64,000 bases of DNA from positions 248,001-312,000 of the forward strand of contig CALUYM010000001.1 of NCBI GenBank assembly GCA_944325035.1, in the 5' to 3' direction. Positions 12,038 through 40,310 of this stretch are shown piece by piece (the first letter of the stretch is position 1; each line of letters starts with the position of its first letter). A model generated the notes under the pieces. It searched no databases. It had not been told where the DNA came from and was given only the letters and a program-made list of their open reading frames with translations. The DNA comes from an uncultured Anaeroplasmataceae bacterium (GTDB taxonomy: Bacteria > Bacillota_I > Bacilli_A > Acholeplasmatales > Anaeroplasmataceae). The position numbers and the translations under genes are program-made.

Positions 12038-12044
12038 AAAAATG

Positions 12045-12145
12045 TCTTCAGGGTCGGGTGAAATTCCCAATCGGCGGTAAACTCCGCGAGCTTCGGCAGG
12101 AACTGGTGTAATTCCAGTAGCGACAGTATAGTCTGGATGGAAGAA
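12045..12145 (+). ncRNA. FMN riboswitch (RFN element)
   Basis: The leader has the conserved RFN blocks in order: AGGGTCGGGTGAAATTCCC, ATCGGCGGTAA, CGCGAGC, GCAGGAACTGGTG, TTCCAGTAGCGACAGTATAG and GTCTGGATGGAAGAAG, with TCTTC/GAAGA closing P1. TCAGGGTC (12048-12055) can also pair with GACCCTGA of the downstream terminator, giving a mutually exclusive antiterminator. FMN binding should release the terminator and shut off ribU. Confidence 0.95.
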
Positions 12146-12169
12146 GAAAAAATTTTTTATTGACGTCAT

Positions 12170-22714: not shown

Positions 22715-23090
22715 GGGCTAGTTTTTGGATTCGCCAAGATAGATGAAGACTTGTAAGCATGTTATGGTTGCGCATATAAAAACGCCGAGGTTTAAATTAA
22801 CCGCAAAAACACATTTATTTGCTAACAACAATGTTAGCATGCAATTAGCTTGCTAATTTAATCAAGCTCGTCACCTCTCTATTTTCCTATGGTAGGGACT
22901 GCTGACGTTTAGAATAGTAGGATATATTGATTTGTCGCCACCTTAGGCAAGTTTACGAATTTAATAAGGTTAGTCTATATTATGTTTGCATAGTAGCTAG
23001 ATATAGATGAAATTAATTACTATGCTAAACATGTAGAAATCAAGGCATAGTCTTTTTTGTACCGGGGTTCGACTCCCCGCTGGTCCACCA
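22715..23090 (+). ncRNA. ssrA: Transfer-messenger RNA (tmRNA)
   Basis: 376-nt tmRNA. GGGCTAG at the 5' end pairs with CTGGTCC before the 3' ACCA to form the alanine-tRNA-like acceptor stem, and GGGGTTCGACTCCCC is the T-arm with TTCGA loop. The resume codon GCA at 22803 opens the tag frame, which reads A-KTHLFANNNVSMQLAC and stops at TAA 22854-22856. The first residues resemble the B. subtilis tag (GKTNSFNQNVALAA), but the C-terminus is Leu-Ala-Cys instead of Leu-Ala-Ala. smpB and rnr are directly upstream. Confidence 0.96.
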
Positions 23091-27451: not shown

Positions 27452-27494
27452 AGTAAATAAAAAATGAACAAGAGGAGCAAGACAAATGAGTAAA

Positions 27495-27625
27495 CTATGG
27501 AGGAGGCATCCTAAGAAGTAGTTGAAAGGTAAGCTTGCCGAACGAGAATCTAGGCATAGATTTGTCGTGGGGTTATAAAGAACATTTATAACACTCCTGC
27601 TAGATTTAGCAGAGGCGCTTAAGTA
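27495..27625 (+). ncRNA. Lysine (L-box)-like riboswitch with shortened P2
   Basis: Blocks appear in L-box order: GGAGGC, AAGTAG, TTGAAAGG, TGCCGAA, a P3 stem (ACGA-GAATCT/AGATTT-GTCGT), GTGGGGTTATAAA with a P4 hairpin (TTATAAA/TTTATAA), a P5 hairpin (CTGCTA/TAGCAG) and GAGGCGC. The AGTA and GAAAGG segments that border the long P2 arm in known lysine riboswitches are almost contiguous, so that arm is missing, and P1 is not obvious. A terminator follows and the downstream genes are an amino-acid transporter, which fits. The ligand is inferred. Confidence 0.6.
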
Positions 27626-27657
27626 TTTTTGAACAGAAAATTATTTAAACTATTTAG

Positions 27658-29378: not shown

Positions 29379-30379
29379 TGAAAGTATTAGAAATTAAAAA
29401 TATCGCTAAATTTTATGGACCTAATAAGGTTTTAAAAGATATCTCTTTGGATGTTGAAAAAGGTGATGTTATCTCAATAATTGGGCCATCGGGGTCTGGA
29501 AAGTCTACTTTCTTACGTTGTTTAAACTTATTAGAAGTTCCAACACGTGGTAATTTAGTTTTTGAAGGAAAAAACTACTTTAACATTAAGTATTGTAAAG
29601 ATGATTTTGTAGACTATGATGCATATAATCATACTTTAAATGAATATAATGAAAAATTAATAGAAACAGAAGATGAGTTAGCAATTTGGGAAAATCAATT
29701 TTTAGTAGATAAATCAAAGGAACTTAAGGCAAAAATTAAGGATGCTAGAAAACAATTTAAAGCGATTCGTAATAATCCAATTTTAAAACGTGATTTTTTC
29801 AATGAAGAAGCTTATAAAAAAGCAGTTGAATCTAGTCCTAATACTATCATACCTTCTAAAGATATAAATCAAATTCGTTCTCGTGTGGTAATGGTTTTTC
29901 AAAGTTTTAATTTGTTTAATAATTTTAATGTCTTAGAAAATTGTATTTTAGCTCAAACTAAAATTTTAAAGAGAAATTATCAAGAGGCTAAAGAAATTGC
30001 GATTAAACATCTTAAAAGTGTAAATATGCATGATAGAATGAATTATAGAATCTCTGAATTATCCGGAGGACAAAAACAAAGAGTTGCAATTGCTAGAGCT
30101 CTTTGCATGGACCCTGAAGTCATTTTATTTGATGAACCAACTTCAGCTTTAGATCCAGAAATGGTCGGAGAAGTGTTACAAGTTATGAAGGATTTGGCTA
30201 AAAAGGGTATGACTATGATAGTTGTTACTCATGAAATGCAATTTGCTAAAGAAGTATCTAATAAAGTTATCTTTATGGAAGGCGGGCACATTGTTGAACA
30301 AGCTCATCCAACAGATTTATTCAACAATCCAAAAGAAGAAAGAACTAAGGAGTTCTTAAAAAGATATCTTGCAAGATAA
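29378..30379 (+). CDS. Amino-acid ABC transporter ATP-binding protein with a large insertion
   Basis: 333 residues, about 90 more than GlnQ/HisP-type ATPases. Walker A is GPSGSGKST (36-44), Q-loop VFQSFNLF (Q175), signature [15 protein letters not shown] (228-242), Walker [13 protein letters not shown] and the switch His in VTHEMQF. Between the Walker A strand region and the Q-loop, residues ~68-158 are an extra charged, helical, probably coiled segment (Lys, Glu, Asp and Asn rich). The core is intact, so activity is expected. The start overlaps the permease stop by one base (TAATG). Confidence 0.93.
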
Positions 30380-30403
30380 GGATAAATAATAATTAAATAT
30401 AAT

Positions 30404-30450
30404 AGTTTATCATAAAAAATGCTAGGCTTTTTTATGATAAACTTTTTTTA
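30404..30450 (+). terminator. Terminator of the ABC transporter operon
   Basis: Perfect 16-bp stem AGTTTATCATAAAAAA (30404-30419)/TTTTTTATGATAAACT (30428-30443) followed by a T run. Confidence 0.93.
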
Positions 30451-30469
30451 TTTTTTTGATTTAAAATTA

Positions 30470-30498
30470 TTGAAAAAAATAAATTTTTTTAGTAAAAT
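30470..30498 (+). promoter_or_regulatory. Promoter of the c-di-GMP-controlled operon
   Basis: TTGAAA (30470-30475), a 17-base spacer and TAAAAT (30493-30498), about 25 bases before the aptamer. Confidence 0.75.
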
Positions 30499-30519
30499 CT
30501 AGGTGAAATAGATGTTCTT

Positions 30520-30588
30520 TTTTAGGCAAAACTAGAGTAATCTAGTGACGCAAAGCTAGAGGGTCCTGTGATGGATAGCCAGTTGCAG
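30520..30588 (+). ncRNA. Cyclic di-GMP-I (GEMM) riboswitch
   Basis: GGCAAAACTAGAGTAATCTAG forms the first hairpin, followed by the invariant GACGCAAAGCTAGAGGGTCC core and ATGGATAGCCAGTTGC, as in GEMM-I aptamers. The 3' end of the aptamer (GTTGC) is shared with the terminator stem, so ligand binding and termination are probably mutually exclusive (an ON switch). It lies ahead of the large surface-protein genes. Confidence 0.9.
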
Positions 30589-30604
30589 TAATGCAACTTT
30601 TTTT
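30581..30604 (+). terminator. Riboswitch expression-platform terminator
   Basis: AGTTGCA (30581-30587)/TGCAACT (30592-30598) around GTAA, followed by TTTTTT. Its 5' arm overlaps the aptamer. Confidence 0.85.
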
Positions 30605-30624
30605 GTGTAAAAAAGGAAATAAAT

Positions 30625-31374
30625 ATGAGAAAAAGAATACTTTACATTTCCATTTTTGTTAGCATTTTACTTACACTAGGCGTAACTGTATACGCCATGT
30701 TTACCTACAATAATAAATTTAAAACTAATATAAATACTTATACTATTAACAATACTTCAATAGTAGAACCAACATCAAGTCTTGATATAACATTTAATAA
30801 TTCAGGTGAGGTAGTTGATTTTACGTATGGAGTTACGAATAATGATAGTAATGCCTATTTTTATAATTTTGTTCTAATTGGAGATAGCGTAGATTCAACA
30901 CTTACAAATATGATTTATGTTTACTTTGATTCAAAATATATCGGTGTCCTTTCATCTTTATTAAATAAAGAGATTTCAACAGATTTATTTATTAATTCAA
31001 GTGAAACAAGAACAAATCAAATTAGTTTTGAATTACATAATTCATCTAATTTACTTAAAAATTCAGCAATAAGAATTAGAATAAGAGCCTTGGTTAAAAC
31101 AATTGATAAATCTAAATTCATATTAGCCAATAATGAAGAAACATTTATAAAAGCCATAAATGATGTTAATCAAAGTAGTAGTGATAGAAATGTCATTTTA
31201 ACTGACGATATCACTTTAAATACTGATCTTACCTTGATAAATGGTGTTAATTTGGATTTATGTGGTAAAAATCTTGTACTGAATAACTCATTATTAATTA
31301 ATGGCGTCAATGAACAAGTAGTAAAATTAGCAATTCAAGAAATACAGGTAGTATCACTGGCAATATTAACTTAA
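30625..31374 (+). CDS. Giant surface protein, N-terminal part before a frameshift
   Basis: 249 codons, starting with a signal anchor (ILYISIFVSILLTLGVTVYAMF). A CalY/TasA-like beta segment follows (STLTNMIYVYFDSKYIG), then a strand pattern NVILTDDITLNTDLTLINGV resembling the equivalent region of the next gene. The frame ends abnormally at 31372-31374; the protein clearly continues in another frame (next entry). Restored, the gene would encode about 1,620 residues. Exported and probably surface-attached. AAAGGA precedes the ATG. Either a real mutation or a sequence error. Confidence 0.75.
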   Translation: MRKRILYISIFVSILLTLGVTVYAMFTYNNKFKTNINTYTINNTSIVEPTSSLDITFNNSGEVVDFTYGVTNNDSNAYFYNFVLIGDSVDSTLTNMIYVYFDSKYIGVLSSLLNKEISTDLFINSSETRTNQISFELHNSSNLLKNSAIRIRIRALVKTIDKSKFILANNEETFIKAINDVNQSSSDRNVILTDDITLNTDLTLINGVNLDLCGKNLVLNNSLLINGVNEQVVKLAIQEIQVVSLAILT

Positions 31375-34300
31375 ATAGTGAACATGCCCTAGTAATACCT
31401 TATGTAGATTTAACGAATAATTTAAATATTAATAGTTATAATCACGATTTGCTCGTTAAAGTCTTTCAAGATTATTTAAATAATCATCAGTATAATAATA
31501 AAGAATCAGTTTTTGGTTATTTGTCGATATATATTGGGCATAATTTAAATGTGTCAATCGATGGAGTAGAAGTTCTAAATGATGGACTTTATCAGTATAA
31601 CGGTAATATCAGTCAAATTTTAGATGTAGTATTAACCTTTGGTGAAAAAGAGGTCTTATTGGAATTAAATGTTTTTAGTCAAGACGATATTTTAACTACA
31701 ATTTTTAGTAAGGAATTATTACACCTTGAGCAATTTGCATCTAGTGATAATACTATTCAATTAGGATATAATTTATATTTACCAACCATTTTAAAATCAT
31801 ATAATGCTACAGTAAGTTACTTTTCTTCGGATGATTCGATTATGACAAATGAAGGTAAATTAATGCCAGAAAAACAAGGTAATATAACATTAACAGCCCA
31901 TATTTATGTAAATAATAAAATCTATACAAAAGTCTATTATATTCATGTAGTGCAGCAAGATAATCAAGATAAACTCCAATATCTAGCGATTTTAATTGAA
32001 GGAAGTATTAGTCCATTTACAAGTTTATATGATAGTTCAAATGAAAGCACATATTATAGTTTACCGACAATTGATACATATCAAACATTATTCAATATTA
32101 GGAATTTAGGAATTCTTGAATTAAGCTATGAACTTGAAAGTAACTATTATTACATGGGATTAGACATTCAAACGGAAAATTTACCGGATGCGGTATTAAT
32201 TCCAAATTCTAAAATGACATCAGCTATTATTTATTTAAAACAAATTACGTATCAAAAGACGGCCAGACTTACAATAAAAGCTCGTTTTGATAATGATGAA
32301 GTAGTCCAAGCATATATAAACTTAAATATAAGTCTTGATCAAGGAACTCTTCAAAACCAAATTTTTAGCGATGTACAAACATATTTAGATAGCGTTGATA
32401 TTTTAGGACTTATGCTTGAGTCAAGAAACACTTTAGGAGTAAAAAATGTTAATGCTGATTTTAGTTTGCCAAAAGAAATTGGTACAGTGAACCTAAGTTA
32501 TAAAGCTAAATCAGATAGCCCTTATATACTAGAAATAAAAGATGGAGTTACATATGTCTCTTTTAAAAATAAATTTAAAGAGTTTGATATAACTGATAAA
32601 CGAATTCCATTAACGGTCGTAATTAAAGGTTATGACGAACTAGGAAATGAGAAGGATATCGAAAGAGATTTATATTTTATTATTCCTGGAGCTTTAACAC
32701 CAGTTAGTTTCGCACCATTTCAAGATATCGAAACTGATCATATCGTGAAAAGTTTTTACTATAGTTTGTTATATCAAGTTTTATTACAAACAAACGAATT
32801 AATGAAGTATGATGAAAACATTAATTTAATTGATGCAAATATCACTAACATTTTAGCTTTAGAATCATATATTCTAATCAATGACTTAGTTAATGTTAAA
32901 GAATTTGTGTTTGAATATGGAAATGAGTCAGTAATTCTTGACAAATATGATTTATCTTTTTTAAGTAATATTTTTACATGGGCAAGTTCAAGTTCAACTG
33001 ATACATTTATTAAATGGGCAGAGGCTAATAATATTACAGTTATAAATATTGATAAACATATCAGTTGGATTCAAGCCGATGGAATTTCAACTTTAAGTGA
33101 TGGTGAAATTGAATTTATTATAAGGTATGGGGATAAATACTCATTCTTTAAATCAATTTTTAGTAAGTATATTAATACTTTAGATAACACATTAAGCAGT
33201 TCTGATATTTCTGATTTAACTTCAATTTTAGCAACTGACCAAATATTTGCAAATATTTTAGATTGGATTATGAATTCTACTGAATACGTCACAATTTCTG
33301 AATATTTGAATGAACAAGGTGTAACAGGTTTTGAAACATATTTCCAGTCAAACCAAGCACTATTAAATACTTATAATGATGAACTAGAAACAATTAGTAA
33401 TGAAGAAGAACGTGTAATTTTATTTTATGTTTATAATCGATATATTTTAACTGAAAATAATCTAGTAAAATACGAAGCTTTTTATAATGTATGGGTAGAA
33501 ACTGTAGAGAGAAATAATGCCATTAATGATGGTACTGTAAAACGTTTTGATGGACTTAAATACACTGGTTCTAAATTTAGTACAACTGTAGGATGTTATG
33601 ATATTATCTTTCCAATTATTTTAGGTTGGGCTTTAGATTATGGAACATCATTGACACTAAGCAGTGCTTTGTTGGGTGCTGGAGTTAGTAGTGAAGAAAT
33701 GGTCAATATTTTTAGTGAAACGGAATTGGCATATACAAACACATGGTTAACTAACTCTAGCACAAGTGCAGCTATGGTTACTAAAAATGAATGGCGGATT
33801 ATTGAAAAATATTTAAGTTTTTATGGAATCAGTTATTCCAATTTAGGTATTACAGTTGATGTATTTTATGATGATAGACAATCAAACCAGCCAACTGTGA
33901 CAAGTCAATACATTGAAGTGACAAAAGCATCTTTTCTATTTTGGACCTATTATGCAACTAACCTAAATAGTTCCTTTGTCACAATGGCAATTAATGATAT
34001 TAATAGTAAATACACGGAAATTTTATATAAGAATGAATCGTTTATTAACCAATATAATACAATTTATGACGAAGCGATTAAAACATATGAGCAAAATCCT
34101 AAATATCAAATTGTAAATGGTTTAATGTTTAGTGATGGAAAATCAAAAATTTCATACGATGAATATTGTCTTTTAAATGAATTATTTATTACATTTAAAG
34201 AAAGTATAAGTAATAAAACGGTTATTTTAGAAAATACATATCAAATTAGTGATGTAATCATTAACTATTATTGGTCAAAAGCTTCTAACGAATTTGAAGA

Positions 34301-35495
34301 TATTACAAGTCAAAAATTAGATCAAAATAGAGCAAAATTGATTAATACTATTGAAAATCTTGCAACATTTCAAGAGATAATTGATAAAATAACATCATTA
34401 GGAAGTTCATCAAGTCTAGATACTGATTATTTTGATAATTTATCAACAATCAGTAAAGAAGAATTACAATATTTAGTTGATGCATACAAGGATAATTTAG
34501 ATTTTATTAAAAAGTTAAATGAACTTATAACTAGTTTTAGAATTAATTTAGAAACATTTATTGTTGAAACAGTAACTGATGGAGTAGACCGAGAATTAAG
34601 TTCAAATGAAATTAATGAGATTCTTACCAGTTTAGCTACAATATTAGGCGGAAATGGAAAAAAATTCCAATATTTAGTAATTCCGCAAATAGATGCATTG
34701 CATACTGATTTGTTTACTGTATTACAATATTTTCCACATTTAGAATCATTAGCACTAAAAGGCAATGAATTTACATCACTGTTTAAAGATGCAACTATAG
34801 GGGATATGATTTATTCAGCTAATTATGCTGCAAACATAGTATTCCAAACAATTGTAAATTCTAATGTTAACTTGATGAGTTTAGTATTTAATTATTCTAG
34901 TTTATATAGTATTCAAGGTCTAGAAAACTTACTTGAACTACAATATTTAGAAATCAAAGGAAATTCATCACCAGTTCAAGGAGAAACTGGCTTATCAGAT
35001 GTGAGTGAGTTTTTATTGTTACTTGCGAAAAAGCTATCTAACAATAAAAATCCATTAACCTATTTAAACATATATGGAAATGATATTGAAGAAAGCTATG
35101 CAGAAATTTATCTTATGCAGCTATATAATGCATATAAAGATTACAACTTATATTATTTTTATTCTATGAACGGTGAAGAAACAATATTTAAGTTTGATGA
35201 TGCAAACATGGTAGCATCTGAACTTGCAAGCTTAATAAAAAAAATTGGTTCGATAACTACTCAATATTTATATTTACCAACTCAAGTTACAAATGGTACC
35301 TATATTGGTAATATTACATGGAGCATCGTTTCTGGTGCTACATATATTTCAATTTTTGATAATAAATATATTGAAAATCTTAACATTAATGGTACAGCGA
35401 TAGTTATGGCAACAGTAACTGTAGACATTAATAATGATGGATTAATAGATCAGTCCTATTCAAGATATTTTGTAATTGAAGTAAAGAAATTTTAG
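31314..35495 (+). CDS. Giant surface protein, main part (Ig-like and leucine-rich regions)
   Basis: Continues the preceding frame after a one-base shift between 31314 and 31374 (NSRNTGSITGNINLNSEH follows on directly). Near its start a bacterial Ig-like stretch is visible (SYFSSDDSIMTNEGKLMPE, then NITLTAHIYVNN). The middle is a long helical, Ser/Thr/Asn-rich region. The C-terminal third has LRR-like segments (FPHLESLALKGNEF, LLELQYLEIKGN, LTYLNIYGND), and the end is another beta-rich domain (ITWSIVSGATYISIF). No LPxTG sorting signal or C-terminal membrane anchor was seen. An independent start at TTG 31449 is possible but has no good ribosome binding site. Role inferred: adhesion or matrix. 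Confidence 0.75.
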   Translation, partial: TSSKISNSRNTGSITGNINLNSEHALVIPYVDLTNNLNINSYNHDLLVKVFQDYLNNHQYNNKESVFGYLSIYIGHNLNVSIDGVEVLNDGLYQYNGNISQILDVVLTFGEKEVLLELNVFSQDDILTTIFSKELLHLEQFASSDNTIQLGYNLYLPTILKSYNATVSYFSSDDSIMTNEGKLMPEKQGNITLTAHIYVNNKIYTKVYYIHVVQQDNQDKLQYLAILIEGSISPFTSLYDSSNESTYYSLPTIDTYQTLFNIRNLGILELSYELESNYYYMGLDIQTENLPDAVLIPNSKMTSAIIYLKQITYQKTARLTIKARFDNDEVVQAYINLNISLDQGTLQNQIFSDVQTYLDSVDILGLMLESRNTLGVKNVNADFSLPKEIGTVNLSYKAKSDSPYILEIKDGVTYVSFKNKFKEFDITDKRIPLTVVIKGYDELGNEKDIERDLYFIIPGALTPVSFAPFQDIETDHIVKSFYYSLLYQVLLQTNELMKYDENINLIDANITNILALESYILINDLVNVKEFVFEYGNESVILDKYDLSFLSNIFTWASSSSTDTFIKWAEANNITVINIDKHISWIQADGISTLSDGEIEFIIRYGDKYSFFKSIFSKYINTLDNTLSSSDISDLTSILATDQIFANILDWIMNSTEYVTISEYLNEQGVTGFETYFQSNQALLNTYNDELETISNEEERVILFYVYNRYILTENNLVKYEAFYNVWVETVERNNAINDGTVKRFDGLKYTGSKFSTTVGCYDIIFPIILGWALDYGTSLTLSSALLGAGVSSEEMVNIFSETELAYTNTWLTNSSTSAAMVTKNEWRIIEKYLSFYGISYSNLGITVDVFYDDRQSNQPTVTSQYIEVTKASFLFWTYYATNLNSSFVTMAINDINSKYTEILYKNESFINQYNTIYDEAIKTYEQNPKYQIVNGLMFSDGKSKISYDEYCLLNELFITFKESISNKTVILENTYQISDVIINYYWSKASNEFEDITSQKLDQNRAKLINTIENLATFQEIIDKITSLGSSSSLDTDYFDNLSTISKEELQYLVDAYKDNLDFIKKLNELITSFRINLETFIVETVTDGVDRELSSNEINEILTSLATILGGNGKKFQYLVIPQIDALHTDLFTVLQYFPHLESLALKGNEFTSLFKDATIGDMIYSANYAANIVFQTIVNSNVNLMSLVFNYSSLYSIQGLENLLELQYLEIKGNSSPVQGETGLSDVSEFLLLLAKKLSNNKNPLTYLNIYGNDIEESYAEIYLMQLYNAYKDYNLYYFYSMNGEETIFKFDDANMVASELASLIKKIGSITTQYLYLPTQVTNGTYIGNITWSIVSGATYISIFDNKYIENLNINGTAIVMATVTVDINNDGLIDQSYSRYFVIEVKKF

Positions 35496-35512
35496 AAAGG
35501 AGATGAATTTAG

Positions 35513-38500
35513 ATGCGAAAAAAAATAATAGTTAGTTTATCTATAATTTCAATTTTGATTTTATGTAGTACGATAATATATGGCTATTTCTATAAAGCCC
35601 TAGATTCATCAAATCCTCATAATTTTAGTCAAAATATATCAAATGGAATAATCGAAATTAATTCATTGGATGAATTTTACCAAGCCATAACGTATCAAAA
35701 TTCTACTGCAAATAATACAAATATTAGTTCCAAAGATGAAAGAATCACTATCAAAGTTAATGTTGATTTAACATTAACGACTGATGTTAGTATTTTGCGC
35801 GATGCGCATTTATATTTAAATAACGTTTCAATTGATCTTAATGGTTATACTTTAGAATTTAAAAATAAGTATGATGGGTTATTTATGGTGTATGGAATAG
35901 GAACATTTAAAGATAGCACGGGAACAAATAATATCTATTTAGATGTTCCAAATGCATATGTTTTATTTTCTGATACGATTAAAGTGTTAGATGATATATC
36001 TATTATAGAGAAAAATATTTCAGATAGTGTATTAGTAAACACAGCCATGAATTATATAGTTTTAAATTTAGTCTATGCAGGAATAGGTAATATTAATAGT
36101 TTAATTGGCAAAGAATTGCATTATAATCAACAGCTTTGTAGTTTTGAACACAAAAATATCACCGATTATTGCTTGTATACTTATACAGATTTATTATTTG
36201 AATATAATTATTTTAATCATCGTGATTTAAATATTACATATAAGTCATCTGACACAAATGTTTTATCAGATACTGGCAATATAAAAGGGCAGGGACAAGC
36301 TATTTTAAGTATTAGTATTAGCTATAAGAACCTATCGATTACTAAGACAATTACGGTCCATAGTGTATCAGAAGCTGAATATGCTAAAGCTAGTTTAATT
36401 AATTTACAAAGTTATTTATATGTTAATTATTTCGATGATACAGAAAATAAATATGTATTTAAAACATCTTTTATGATACCTCGACAAAATGAATACTTTA
36501 ATCAAAATTACACAATAACATTAAATTCTGGTCTAACAAGTGAGATTATTATTAATGATACTAATTTAAGTGATTATTTTGATATTTTCGATACATATTA
36601 TGTATTATATTTAAATTCTGATATTACAAATATGGTTCTAACTAGTAGTAATGGTAGTGTTTCTTATGCAAGTGATGTCTTACCTGTAAATGCCACATCA
36701 AGTAAATTAATTGATGACAATTATTCATATGTATTAAACTTTGTAGTTGAAGAAATTGGAAATCAGCTTATGGTCTATGATGATTCTACCTTTGTAAATA
36801 GTGGTTATACTGAATATGATTTGCCATTAAACGCATATGATTTAGGTTATACCAGAATAAAAAGCATTTCATATTCTTTAGTTAGTAATGATGAGGCAAC
36901 ATATAAATTAGAAACAAGTGATAATTATGTTAAATTATCGGTTTCTAAAGATGGAGTTTTACCTTATTTAGGACAAAATGTTTTTATATCAATTTTAGCA
37001 ACTTTTCATACTGATGAAACAATAACTATTCAAATTCCTATCACATATGCAGTACGTGATACAGGAGAAGGTTTGGATTATTTTGCATCATTTTATACGT
37101 ATTTTAATAATCAATTTGTATATAAAACTAATAACTACACTTATAATAGTTTCAATTTGCCATTTGCATATCAAAGAAATTTACCGACATATACATTTAT
37201 TGTTTATGAAAAAAATTCGGATGGCTCATTTAAGCGTGTTCCTACAAGTGATGGATTATTTACTATTTATGTGGTTAGTGGAAGTTCTACAATACAAATT
37301 GATGATTTAACATCTATTAACTTGAATAATTTTATTAAGAATAGTAATACTGAAGTTTTGATCAAGATTAATCCATATTATATTAATAAAATAGATACAG
37401 AGTATTACTTTGCATATGTTCCGATTTATCAAAATGCGAGTAATTATTATTATGATTTATCATACACTGATGAAAATGGAATATATCAAAAGTTAAATTT
37501 TATGAACTTAGATGATGTTGAGGCAAATTTAAATAGTAGAATAGATTCATACGAATATATTAGTCATCTAACAATTCCTGGAATTGTTAGATATCAAAAT
37601 GCGAATTCTATAATGGAAGAAGCATTTGAAAGTTCATATTTTTATCTACTAGTATATGAAATTCTTCATTTTGACTCAGCATATGTCGATGGTAAAACTT
37701 TTATTCAATCAACTAGATTAACTCAAAAAATTGATGAAATAGTTCTTACAAGTTCGAATTCAAATTCATCATTATCAACATATATTTCATCATTAAAAGG
37801 TATTAATTTATTAACAGGGTTGGTAAAATTGACATTAACAGGGTTTAATTTTCCATCACTTGGTGAAAATTGGCCGATTAATATGACATATATATCAGAA
37901 ATTGTTAGTTTAAAATCGCTAAATTTATCAAATACAGCAATATATGACCAAGCAGAAAGTTCCAATACTTTTCCTACTGGTACGTCAAATGAATTTTTAC
38001 GTACATTAAGCAATTTAAATAATCTTGAAACTTTAGATTTGAGTAACAATAAGATTTATAATTTTGAAGCATTGACTAATTTTCCATCGCTAAAGACTGT
38101 TAATGTCACAAATAATGTTTTTGAGGCTACTAGTAGTTCTTTTGATTGGTTTAATAATATTTTTGAAGGTATTGTTAACTCGATGTATGGTTCAAGTGGA
38201 AGCATTAACCAAGCAACTTATGCGATATTAATAGCTAATGGAGTAACAGTAACGCTAGGTGATTCAAGTATTACTCTAACAGACGATCAAAAAAAGATTA
38301 TATCTGCTTTAACATCACTTCTTTATCAAGATAAGCTTAGCCAAACACAGTCTATCGAAGATGCTTATAAATATATTGATTTAAGTAATATTATAAATTA
38401 TTTGACTAATACATTTATCATTGAAAATGGTGATACGAGGGTTAAATATGTTTTCAACGAAATTGGATTTAGTTATGATAGTACAGCTGATAGTAAGTTT

Positions 38501-38632
38501 ATTTTCCATATTAAATATAGTATAAGCTATTCAACTAAAAATATTTTTGGTGGATGGAGTGCGTATAAAACTGATAACTTGCCAACTACAATTATAGATT
38601 ACAATTTTACTTATTCGGTTTATCGATATTAG
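35513..38632 (+). CDS. Large secreted/anchored protein with Ig-like and LRR regions
   Basis: 1,039 residues; signal anchor IIVSLSIISILILCSTIIYGYF. Residues ~83-160 resemble the strand region of the previous gene (DLTLTTDVSILRDAHLYLN, SIDLNGYTLEF). Residues ~215-285 are Ig-like (NITYKSSDTNVLSDTGNI). Residues ~755-880 are leucine-rich repeats (GLVKLTLTGF, LKSLNLSNTAI, LETLDLSNNKIYNFEAL, LKTVNVTNNVF). Ser, Asn and Tyr are abundant; no sorting motif is seen at the C-terminus. It is a paralogue of the upstream giant gene in order of domains. AAGGAGATG precedes the ATG, 17 bases after the upstream stop. Confidence 0.85.
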   Translation: MRKKIIVSLSIISILILCSTIIYGYFYKALDSSNPHNFSQNISNGIIEINSLDEFYQAITYQNSTANNTNISSKDERITIKVNVDLTLTTDVSILRDAHLYLNNVSIDLNGYTLEFKNKYDGLFMVYGIGTFKDSTGTNNIYLDVPNAYVLFSDTIKVLDDISIIEKNISDSVLVNTAMNYIVLNLVYAGIGNINSLIGKELHYNQQLCSFEHKNITDYCLYTYTDLLFEYNYFNHRDLNITYKSSDTNVLSDTGNIKGQGQAILSISISYKNLSITKTITVHSVSEAEYAKASLINLQSYLYVNYFDDTENKYVFKTSFMIPRQNEYFNQNYTITLNSGLTSEIIINDTNLSDYFDIFDTYYVLYLNSDITNMVLTSSNGSVSYASDVLPVNATSSKLIDDNYSYVLNFVVEEIGNQLMVYDDSTFVNSGYTEYDLPLNAYDLGYTRIKSISYSLVSNDEATYKLETSDNYVKLSVSKDGVLPYLGQNVFISILATFHTDETITIQIPITYAVRDTGEGLDYFASFYTYFNNQFVYKTNNYTYNSFNLPFAYQRNLPTYTFIVYEKNSDGSFKRVPTSDGLFTIYVVSGSSTIQIDDLTSINLNNFIKNSNTEVLIKINPYYINKIDTEYYFAYVPIYQNASNYYYDLSYTDENGIYQKLNFMNLDDVEANLNSRIDSYEYISHLTIPGIVRYQNANSIMEEAFESSYFYLLVYEILHFDSAYVDGKTFIQSTRLTQKIDEIVLTSSNSNSSLSTYISSLKGINLLTGLVKLTLTGFNFPSLGENWPINMTYISEIVSLKSLNLSNTAIYDQAESSNTFPTGTSNEFLRTLSNLNNLETLDLSNNKIYNFEALTNFPSLKTVNVTNNVFEATSSSFDWFNNIFEGIVNSMYGSSGSINQATYAILIANGVTVTLGDSSITLTDDQKKIISALTSLLYQDKLSQTQSIEDAYKYIDLSNIINYLTNTFIIENGDTRVKYVFNEIGFSYDSTADSKFIFHIKYSISYSTKNIFGGWSAYKTDNLPTTIIDYNFTYSVYRY

Positions 38633-38643
38633 GTGGTGAAAAA

Positions 38644-39390
38644 ATGAAAAAGATATATATTACGCTACATGGTTTATTAATAGTTACGGTACTTATTTTA
38701 ACAGGCACCTTACTTTACGCTTGGTTTAGTAATAATAATAGAGCTCATATTAATGATATGTTTGGTTCAATTGATAGTGCAAAGGGAATTGAAGTGATAT
38801 CGTTTGAGGCGTTTGATAAAGATTATGCTGAAATAAACAATGATATTTTGCAAAAACCTTTCACGAATAACAGTTATCCTATAAATGACTTGTTACCAGG
38901 GGAATTCTTTTATACCTCTATTTCATTTAAAACAGTTAAAGATTCAATTGATAAGGTTAATATTGTTTTAGATGATATTAAAGCTGATGCCTTATTGAAT
39001 TCATTAGGTAATCCATATATAAATGGAGATACATATTTTAATATGACCGATGTATTTAAGATTCAAGTTGATTCGTTCTGGAGTCTTAATAATGATAACT
39101 ATGAAAGAATAGAAATTGATACATTAATTCAAACGGGTAATCTTAATTCTAATGTTAAAGATGATATATATTTTACTGGCAGCAAAATCCAAAGTAACAA
39201 CAAAGTTTTAATTTCACGACAAAACTTAGTTACATATTTTAATCCAGTTAAAAATCAAGAGATAATTATTACCTTTAAGTTTACCTTTGATTTTGGACTA
39301 TTAAGTAAAAAAGAAAATGCTTCAAATATTTCAATAGAATCTATTTCAGATAAATTTATTGACTTTGGAAGCTTCATGATTTATGGTTAG
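38644..39390 (+). CDS. Small CalY/TasA-like secreted protein
   Basis: 248 residues. The signal segment ends LLIVTVLILTGTLLYAWFSN, the kind of YAxFS boundary seen in camelysin/TasA proteins processed by SipW-type signal peptidase. The mature part is beta-rich, with LLPGEFFYTSISFKTVKDS and ITFKFTFDFGLLS. Family assignment is by pattern, not alignment. It lies 11 bases after the large LRR gene. It may polymerise into a fibre or cap the giant proteins, which is inference. No SipW gene is present here. Confidence 0.65.
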   Translation: MKKIYITLHGLLIVTVLILTGTLLYAWFSNNNRAHINDMFGSIDSAKGIEVISFEAFDKDYAEINNDILQKPFTNNSYPINDLLPGEFFYTSISFKTVKDSIDKVNIVLDDIKADALLNSLGNPYINGDTYFNMTDVFKIQVDSFWSLNNDNYERIEIDTLIQTGNLNSNVKDDIYFTGSKIQSNNKVLISRQNLVTYFNPVKNQEIIITFKFTFDFGLLSKKENASNISIESISDKFIDFGSFMIYG

Positions 39391-39403
39391 GAAGTGTTTT
39401 AAG

Positions 39404-40102
39404 ATGAAATGAAGAATTACTTTAATTTCTATAGGATTATTTTTAGTCTCAACACTTTTCATAACAACTTTATTTGCATGGTTTATTGAAATGGATAATT
39501 CACCTTCATTTTCAATAAAAAGTGCTAATGTTAGTTCACGAGTTCAACTTTATAAAGGAATCGATTATAATTATGATGGAAATCTTGATTTAATTAAGGA
39601 TGAATTTAATAATTTAATCCCAAATTATGAAACAAGTGATGACTGGATTCGCAACCCGGCAGATACAAGTGCCAATGCTCTTCCACTAGATTTAGTTAAC
39701 ATTATGCCATCTGAGGTATATACATTTAAAATTAACGTTATTAATATGGGAGATGTAGATGCATATATTAAAGTTGTATTAGAACAAGAATTCTTAAATA
39801 ATGATATTTCTAACTTTTTTGATATTAGTATCTTTAAGCTTGGCGATGAAGAAATATTTGAAAAAACAGATGATATTATCTACGGTGGAAGAGATACAGA
39901 TTTTATAAAATGTCCAGAGCTAGTTGATGGAAGTATCAAATACTATCCAATTGATTTGATAATTAAAATTAAATTTCTGCGTTATGAAGAATTATCAAAT
40001 GAGATTAAAGCTCAAATTTCACATGAAAGATATAATAATTATCAAGGAATTGATGTAAGTAGTATGAGTTTATTTACTTTAATATTGTCTAGTTCGCTTT
40101 AA
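39404..40102 (+). pseudogene. CalY/TasA-like protein with nonsense codon at position 3
   Basis: ATG 39404 follows AGGAAGTG at ideal spacing, but codon 3 is TGA (39410-39412). The same frame then runs open for 230 codons: a signal segment RITLISIGLFLVSTLFITTL with FAWF at its end, and a mature part with VNIMPSEVYTFKINVINMGD and AYIKVVLEQEF, typical of CalY-type beta-sandwich proteins. Without the TGA the protein would be 232 residues. A CGA-to-TGA change would explain it. Internal starts such as ATG 39491 would lack the signal peptide. Confidence 0.75.
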
Positions 40103-40137
40103 AAAGTTTACAACTATTTGTTGTAAGCTTTTTTTAC
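40101..40137 (+). terminator. Terminator of the c-di-GMP-controlled operon
   Basis: A 14-bp stem (40101-40114 with 40120-40133, one G-T wobble) around TATTT, followed by T. It starts at the stop codon of the last gene. Confidence 0.88.
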
Positions 40138-40310
40138 TTGTGCATTTTATAAAAATCATCTTATCTAAATAAAAAGAAACATTCAATATTTATAAAATGA
40201 TTATGTATATATTAAACATATAATATTTTTTCATTCAATAATTATAAAAATGCTTGATATTTGGATAAATAAGAATATAATTATTTATGTTTGTAGAAAG
40301 AAGTCTTAGT

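Follow-up and report, generated by a model that had tools for sequence, protein, structure and literature searches.

The stretch of DNA analyzed here, 64,000 nucleotides from an uncultured Anaeroplasmataceae bacterium (the window), contains at positions 30,470 to 40,137 what is probably an operon whose products are exported to the surface or matrix and whose c-di-GMP-I (GEMM-I) riboswitch most likely turns transcription on, and this locus would be one module of a lineage-wide regulon. An earlier note, made from the sequence alone, had proposed a c-di-GMP-switched matrix or adhesion apparatus at this place. The Rfam match, the recurrence of the gene order in relatives and a weak TasA fold match support that proposal. 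The features of the locus, all on the forward strand, are as follows.

30470..30498, +, sigma-70-like promoter candidate TTGAAA-17-TAAAAT (10/12 matches; plausible only)
30515..30590, +, c-di-GMP-I (GEMM-I) riboswitch aptamer (RF01051, 56 bits)
30581..30598, +, intrinsic terminator AGTTGCA-gtaa-TGCAACT followed by T7, its 5' arm overlapping the 3' strand of the aptamer (predicted ON switch)
30625..35495, +, gene 1 (c10), giant surface protein of ~1,620 aa with the frame restored; SipW-type leader YAMF, atrophied Ig domain, one frameshift
35513..38632, +, gene 2 (c11), 1039 aa; SipW-type signal YGYF, beta-rich stretches, internalin-type LRR at residues ~744-883
38644..39390, +, gene 3 (small A), 248 aa; SipW-type leader with YAWF at its end
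39404..40102, +, gene 4 (small B), leader MK(TGA)RIT...LFAWF, then 203 aa; DxNxDGxxD motif, TasA-like fold candidate
40101..40133, +, intrinsic terminator at the end of the operon (terminator scan)

The encoded proteins and their partners in the genome

All four genes carry SipW-type leaders (in gene 4 the FAWF leader is interrupted by a stop at codon 3), a class of signal peptides in which P2' is aromatic (PMC10269814). These signals were called by our own motif rule; none of the window proteins was scored by the NCBIfam model TIGR04088. Stretches of the genome totalling 510 kb and 391 ORFs served as the background for ORF and signal counts. A strict SipW-type signal was found there in 7 ORFs, and all 7 lie inside the genome's three GEMM-I units, in each of which the switch precedes genes with SipW/TasA-type signal peptides.

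The giant sizes claimed previously, ~1,620 aa for the restored gene 1 and 1039 aa for gene 2, were reproduced. The LRR assignment was confirmed in gene 2, where the region at residues ~744-883 matches solved internalin LRR domains with E values around 1e-9 (InlA 4.5e-10, InlH 1.5e-9, InlB 1.6e-8). Gene 2 also matches a designed LRR structure with an E value of 3e-18. The LRR_4 score is just below the Pfam cut-off. Foldseek also matched this region to InlB (1.4e-6); the full-length AlphaFold model of gene 2 has a pLDDT of 51.5, with only the LRR region usable. The Ig-like stretch corresponds to an aBig_2 match in gene 1, which at 26.6 bits falls just short of the cut-off of 27, and a relative of gene 1 found no match among PDB sequences.

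The description of the two small proteins as CalY/TasA-like held only in part. No TasA/CalY match at E<=1 was found for the window proteins in Pfam and NCBIfam or for nine small B homologues against the TasA/CalY profiles of these collections, and comparison of the small proteins with PDB sequences gave nothing useful. The fold search with small B, however, was topped by the TasA fibre (8aur), albeit weakly (E 3.9e-3, probability 0.93, TM 0.36, model pLDDT 66). A TasA-like fibre is suggested by the SipW-type signal peptides, the context and this weak fold match rather than by family membership. The surface assembly would consist of two small beta-rich TasA-like subunits together with the giant and the internalin-type LRR protein, and the latter two could serve adhesion.

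The earlier note had pointed out that the window contains no diguanylate cyclase, PilZ or SipW gene, but all three are encoded elsewhere in the same genome, with 14 GGDEF matches, one PilZ protein and two SipW-like peptidases, by which the leaders might be processed. Both peptidases sit inside another GEMM-I-led operon. This tasA-like/sipW operon (C3), which lies outside the window, contains several further genes with SipW-type signals and in addition encodes a DUF2357 protein and an ATPase of the McrB-like membrane type. The scores were an E value of 0.0015 for AAA_5 (below the Pfam cut-off), 51.3 bits for DUF2357, and 73.7 and 46.6 bits for TIGR02228. The AAA_5/McrB-like protein has an NxD motif (TANKDD) and appears to be membrane-anchored, its membrane and coiled-coil parts being read from the sequence only.

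The same operon and riboswitch could alternatively produce host-directed or cell-cell adhesins of the internalin kind, with the small proteins acting as accessory subunits or chaperones and with no TasA-type fibrous matrix. Such products would fit the internalin-type LRR being the best-supported domain, the lack of a TasA family match and the presence of conventional Sec-signal proteins of 500-770 aa among the other GEMM-I targets of the family. We nevertheless find this somewhat unlikely, as SipW-type leaders are present on all four genes, the fold search with small B ranks TasA first, and the genome's remaining GEMM-I units are of the tasA/sipW kind.

Conservation of the gene order and lesions of the window copy

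The gene order that the earlier note had suggested looking for behind GEMM in related genomes was found there. The succession of a giant, an internalin-type LRR protein of ~1000 aa and two small SipW-signal proteins is found again in seven other genomes, one of them from another family, and in a truncated copy: it is complete in G003, G007, G009, G010, G022 and G075, lacks small A in G054 and is truncated in G038. GEMM-I is located directly upstream of the giant in six relatives (G003, G007, G010, G016, G022 and G054); upstream of the cassettes of G009 and G075, the search detected no aptamer core. Gene 2 and its G054 homologue are 32% identical (E 7e-143), and the corresponding E value for small B is 7e-12.

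The window copy has lesions in two of its four genes. Gene 1 is read as 30625-31374 plus 31449-35495, with a single frame change between about 31310 and 31330. In gene 4, the ORF proper (39491-40102, 203 aa) is preceded by an in-frame signal peptide ending in FAWF, whose leader starts with an ATG at 39404 and has an in-frame TGA as codon 3. A TGA=Trp code was ruled out as the explanation, as 46 of the 391 sampled ORFs end in TGA, which is a genuine stop. The copy may therefore be decaying or mis-assembled. That the locus is a decaying relic in this strain with no functional apparatus, a reading to which the frameshifted giant and the true stop in the fourth leader lend some weight, is in our opinion unlikely. 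No lesion affects genes 2 and 3, the aptamer or either terminator, 4 kb of gene 1 run without further stops, and errors of a draft assembly would look alike. Furthermore, relatives have open frames at the corresponding places, those of gene 1 encoding 1,571-2,138 aa in L086, L059, L094, L116, L054 and L282.

Polarity of the riboswitch

The "good promoter" of the earlier note is present as a 10/12 match, but shuffled sequences contain matches of this quality at least as often (63 observed versus 88 shuffled). Both terminators that it had described were found, the one overlapping the 3' end of the aptamer at 30581-30598 and the single one at 40.1 kb; the region 30300-40300 contains 5 terminator-like sites versus 1.3 expected from shuffles. 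Since the 5' arm of the first terminator is the aptamer's own 3' strand, the aptamer and terminator folds are mutually exclusive. In the absence of ligand, this AGUUGCA strand would pair with UGCAACU and form a terminator ahead of gene 1. With c-di-GMP bound, it would be kept in the aptamer and transcription would proceed through the four genes. The riboswitch is most likely transcriptional and ON at high c-di-GMP, an architecture for which the pilM GEMM-I switch is an experimental precedent (PMC9262584).

A switch of the opposite polarity, by which c-di-GMP silences the operon, would resemble the class-I switches confirmed with reporters in C. difficile, all of which were OFF (PMC6200980). 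We regard this as quite improbable, as the aptamer's 3' strand doubles as the terminator's 5' arm here and as separate, OFF-type terminators occur in the family specifically ahead of stand-alone diguanylate cyclase genes.

This last distinction emerged from a wider comparison. In the order, 91 of 160 genomes carry GEMM-I switches, and in the family they are mostly found ahead of matrix-like operons. The 94 riboswitch units of 36 family genomes include 57 that control matrix modules, 21 that control c-di-GMP enzymes and 14 with other, mostly secreted, targets. When only perfect stems with loops of no more than 9 were accepted, 69 of 101 sites lacked a terminator, and another classification was used instead. 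The ratio of overlapping to separate terminators was 0:8 for stand-alone GGDEF genes versus 61:3 for all other target classes (Fisher P 1.4e-8, with related genomes counted as independent). Antiterminator pairing in the OFF-type leaders is clear in some (z -2.0 to -3.5) and weak in others. From the terminator architecture, matrix genes are predicted to be switched ON and stand-alone diguanylate cyclases OFF. The ON prediction is weaker for phosphodiesterase genes than for matrix genes because the automatic rule classed only 3 of their 11 leaders as overlapping (1 was separate and 7 unclassified). If matrix operons and phosphodiesterases are indeed switched ON and stand-alone cyclases OFF across the lineage, the signal would therefore limit itself. 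GEMM-I also co-occurs with the AAA/SipW module, which is present in 19/19 GEMM-I-bearing versus 1/15 GEMM-I-free genomes of at least 90% completeness (P 1.1e-8 by the same test, again treating relatives as independent).

The aptamer and its ligand

The Rfam covariance model RF01051 agrees with the earlier assignment to GEMM-I, matching 30515-30590 over its full length (1-87) with 56.0 bits, compared with a gathering score of 35. The aptamer helices are backed by covariation among relatives: in 30 family aptamers 98.8% of the cells are paired, and there are 87 double changes versus 26 in shuffles and 7-12 in slid controls. Folding of the entire leader does not exceed that of shuffled sequences (z -1.3). 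At the ligand-selectivity position, equivalent to Vc2 G20 in a mapping that we made guided by the Cd1 G11/Vc2 G20 equivalence in PMC9262584, the window aptamer has a G. This nucleotide is a selectivity factor for c-di-GMP over cGAMP, rather than a hard filter (PMC9262584), and we infer that the window RNA binds c-di-GMP. A response to another cyclic dinucleotide (3',3'-cGAMP) is highly improbable, for although 23 of 101 related aptamers have an A at this position, the window aptamer and all seven giant-cassette aptamers have a G, and the median number of GGDEF matches per family genome is 17.5 with GEMM-I versus 3 without.

Comparison with known systems

The Bacillus TasA system is under SinR/AbrB control. 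The locus resembles Bacillus TasA/CalY-SipW(-TapA) in its SipW-type signals, the SipW-like peptidases of the genome, the small beta-rich exported proteins and the TasA fibre as the best fold match. It differs in that its proteins are missed by TasA/CalY models, the small proteins have giant and LRR partners, a c-di-GMP riboswitch is present and sipW is in a different operon. The BsaA-SipW operon of Clostridium perfringens likewise makes a SipW-dependent extracellular polymer with a surface matrix role in a Firmicute, but responds to temperature and to a two-component system that controls it; the parts of that report available to us describe neither GEMM-I control nor a giant/LRR cassette (PMC7395162). 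The c-di-GMP-I/II regulon of C. difficile similarly has several GEMM switches in one genome on surface and envelope genes, whereas its class I acted uniformly as OFF (PMC6200980) and class I is predicted here to turn surface genes ON and stand-alone cyclases OFF. Gene 2 shares its LRR region with Listeria internalins, but has a SipW-type rather than a conventional signal and a different overall architecture.

CoCoPALM, named in PMC11090510, comprises a McrB-like GTPase with a transmembrane/coiled-coil part, a McrC homologue and a signal peptidase. In the C3 operon, a McrB-like AAA protein with a membrane part, the McrC-like DUF2357 protein and signal peptidases stand side by side in the same way. 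Unlike CoCoPALM as described, this operon is tied to TasA-like secreted proteins and GEMM-I, and the module is absent from the window. Neither TasA nor SipW is mentioned in the main text of PMC11090510.

Implications

Combining these observations, we tentatively propose, with slightly less than even confidence, that in Acholeplasmatales, some of which have no penicillin-binding proteins, c-di-GMP directly switches through RNA a modular extracellular TasA/SipW-type assembly with giant and LRR adhesins and a membrane McrBC-like (CoCoPALM) partner, and that oppositely wired phosphodiesterase and cyclase switches make the signal self-limiting. According to a 2024 paper, Acholeplasma laidlawii is the only mollicute known to use c-di-GMP (PMC11535214). 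We found no description of TasA or SipW in conjunction with c-di-GMP riboswitches in the literature, nor of such a lifestyle-control circuit, in which GEMM-I acts on matrix genes and signal enzymes, in this lineage. If the proposal is true, an RNA-only path leads from the second messenger to the matrix, and the unexplained association of McrBC with signal peptidases gains a candidate function in the export or assembly of TasA-like proteins. Biophysics would also gain a family in which class-I switches of both polarities occur naturally on near-identical aptamers, and bacteria of the rumen and gut would provide adhesion factors that can be tested.

The idea of a wall-less lineage is limited to relatives without transpeptidase domains, of which the window's genome has three matches. 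GEMM-I carriers include relatives without penicillin-binding proteins.

A conserved cassette behind a c-di-GMP riboswitch

The coordinates and sizes given for the locus in the earlier note were borne out on re-examination, as were its GEMM-I (c-di-GMP-I riboswitch) aptamer, the overlap of the aptamer's 3' end with a terminator, and the four genes sharing a single terminator at 40.1 kb:

30515-30590, + strand: aptamer, a full-length match to the Rfam c-di-GMP-I model (56 bits)
30581-30598, + strand: intrinsic terminator, its 5' arm supplied by the aptamer's 3' strand
30625-35495: gene 1, with one frame change between ~31310 and 31330
40101-40133: closing terminator, 3' of the four-gene set

The leader of gene 4 reads M-K-stop-RITLISIGLFLVSTLFITTLFAWF, followed by a 203-aa ORF, and TGA does function as a stop in this genome (G000). 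This stop and the frame change in gene 1 could be either mutations or assembly errors. Elsewhere the window contains a lysine riboswitch (27462-27628) preceding an amino-acid ABC transporter, an FMN riboswitch (12040-12152), both above the Rfam cut-off, and a tmRNA (22715-23090).

The order giant-LRR-small A-small B, which had been proposed for checking in relatives, recurs in G003, G007, G009, G010, G022 and G075, the last a member of another family of the same order. G054 has the giant, LRR and small B genes, and a copy in G038 is cut off by a contig end. Compared with G054, identity is 29% and 32% for the two pieces of the giant (E 3e-111 and 2e-25), 32% for gene 2 (7e-143) and 28% for small B (7e-12). 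The giant lies immediately 3' of a GEMM-I switch in G003, G007, G010, G016, G022 and G054; no aptamer core was found 5' of the G009 and G075 cassettes. Across the order, long matches to the LRR protein were restricted to cassette-bearing genomes, the remaining ones being short and local. The main points of the earlier reading, namely a surface apparatus switched by c-di-GMP and a gene order that is conserved, are supported. Its individual elements are of known kinds, and we found no description of the same combination, lineage and wiring in the open-access literature searched, from which most subscription papers are absent.

The four proteins

Of the Ig-like and LRR stretches suggested earlier, the internalin-type LRR is present in gene 2 (residues ~744-883), whereas the Ig-like part, an atrophied domain in gene 1, scores slightly below the Pfam cut-off. 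All four leaders have a hydrophobic stretch ending in Y/F-A/G-x-F/Y. Since TasA, whose cleavage site has an aromatic P2' residue, is a SipW substrate (PMC10269814), such sites would be expected to require a peptidase of their own. In small B, a DxNxDGxxD-type loop that is conserved across nine homologues may bind calcium. The AlphaFold model of small B (pLDDT 66, pTM 0.65) had the TasA fibre 8aur as top match among 350,542 PDB chains; the match is weak (E 3.9e-3, TM 0.36), but it favours the anticipated TasA-like fold, short of proof. The locus likely makes a TasA-like fibre.

The genome and its other GEMM-I units

The 1.55 Mb genome (92% complete; the window is G000:C1:248001-312000) encodes 14 GGDEF matches, one PilZ protein and three transpeptidase-domain matches; no transpeptidase-domain match was found in G001, G003, G007, G009 or G010. 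It has three GEMM-I switches, two of them outside the window:

C3:89592: GEMM-I, 5' of a YAWF protein and a YAWF/HLYNLAWL protein
C3:121681: GEMM-I, directly 3' of two EAL genes
C3, locus L006:5708-19171: operon with the two EAL genes, the C3:121681 switch and five small secreted-type genes

Downstream of the C3:121681 switch, the five small genes are accompanied by two SipW-like peptidases (TIGR02228), an AAA_5/McrB-like membrane protein and a DUF2357 protein. The operon resembles the CoCoPALM association (PMC11090510), to which it adds TasA-like cargo and riboswitch control. A strict SipW-type signal occurs in 7 of 391 ORFs in 510 kb of the genome, all seven within the three GEMM-I units. 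Two adjacent, more distant AAA relatives (E ~1e-118) lie apart from these sites, at C1:323044-327707.

A predicted regulon in the family

GEMM-I sites numbered 101 in 36 of 55 family genomes, or 94 units once tandems were merged. The first gene is matrix-type in 57 units (c1 family 26, c4 family 21, giant 7, SipW 3), a c-di-GMP enzyme in 21 (11 EAL, 10 GGDEF-only), another, mostly secreted, protein in 14, and absent in two. In 80 AAA-gene loci, all 103 aptamer matches are on the strand of the AAA gene, and an aptamer lies upstream in 33 of the 42 loci having 8 kb of upstream sequence, Izemoplasmatales and records labelled Clostridia included. At completeness of at least 90%, a strong AAA match was present in 19/19 genomes with GEMM-I and 1/15 without. 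One genus (g3, G030-G037) has no GEMM-I, hardly any GGDEF domains and no strong match to the AAA module, so that signal, switch and matrix module are apparently absent together. Tandems of two or three aptamers precede matrix operons in G021:C58 (L043), G040:C1 (L057), L201, L197, L171 and L180. The ligand-selectivity position is A rather than G in 23 of the 101 aptamers, and some of these may therefore prefer 3',3'-cGAMP.

Terminator architecture and predicted polarity

Outside stand-alone GGDEF units, the best terminator overlaps the aptamer's 3' strand in 61 cases, is separate in 3 and was not classified in 18; for GGDEF-only genes the counts are 0, 8 and 2 (both separate by eye), a comparison whose P values are inflated by kinship among genomes. 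Because the aptamer's closing helix uses the same 3' strand as the 5' arm of the overlapping terminator, the two would be mutually exclusive, and c-di-GMP binding should allow read-through. The Geobacter pilM GEMM-I switch offers a precedent for this mode (PMC9262584); class-I switches of C. difficile were OFF, c-di-GMP shutting the gene (PMC6200980). With opposite polarity on cyclase genes, the signal would limit itself. The OFF-type leaders of GGDEF-only units, among them G004:C10:20884-20959 (L070), G006:C70 (L097) and G007:C74 (L062), have the terminator entirely 3' of the aptamer. In some of them, the terminator's 5' arm is able to form a duplex with the aptamer's conserved core (z -2.8 to -3.5). 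Polarity is less certain for phosphodiesterase genes (3 leaders overlapping, 1 separate, 7 unclassified).

In the leaders of three c12-family units (L102, L091, L055), base pairing is possible between the aptamer segment GGTCCCTC, or a similar one, and a GGAGGGAC-type ribosome-binding site, which suggests that the same aptamer may exert translational control. These units encode Sec-type proteins of 500-590 aa.
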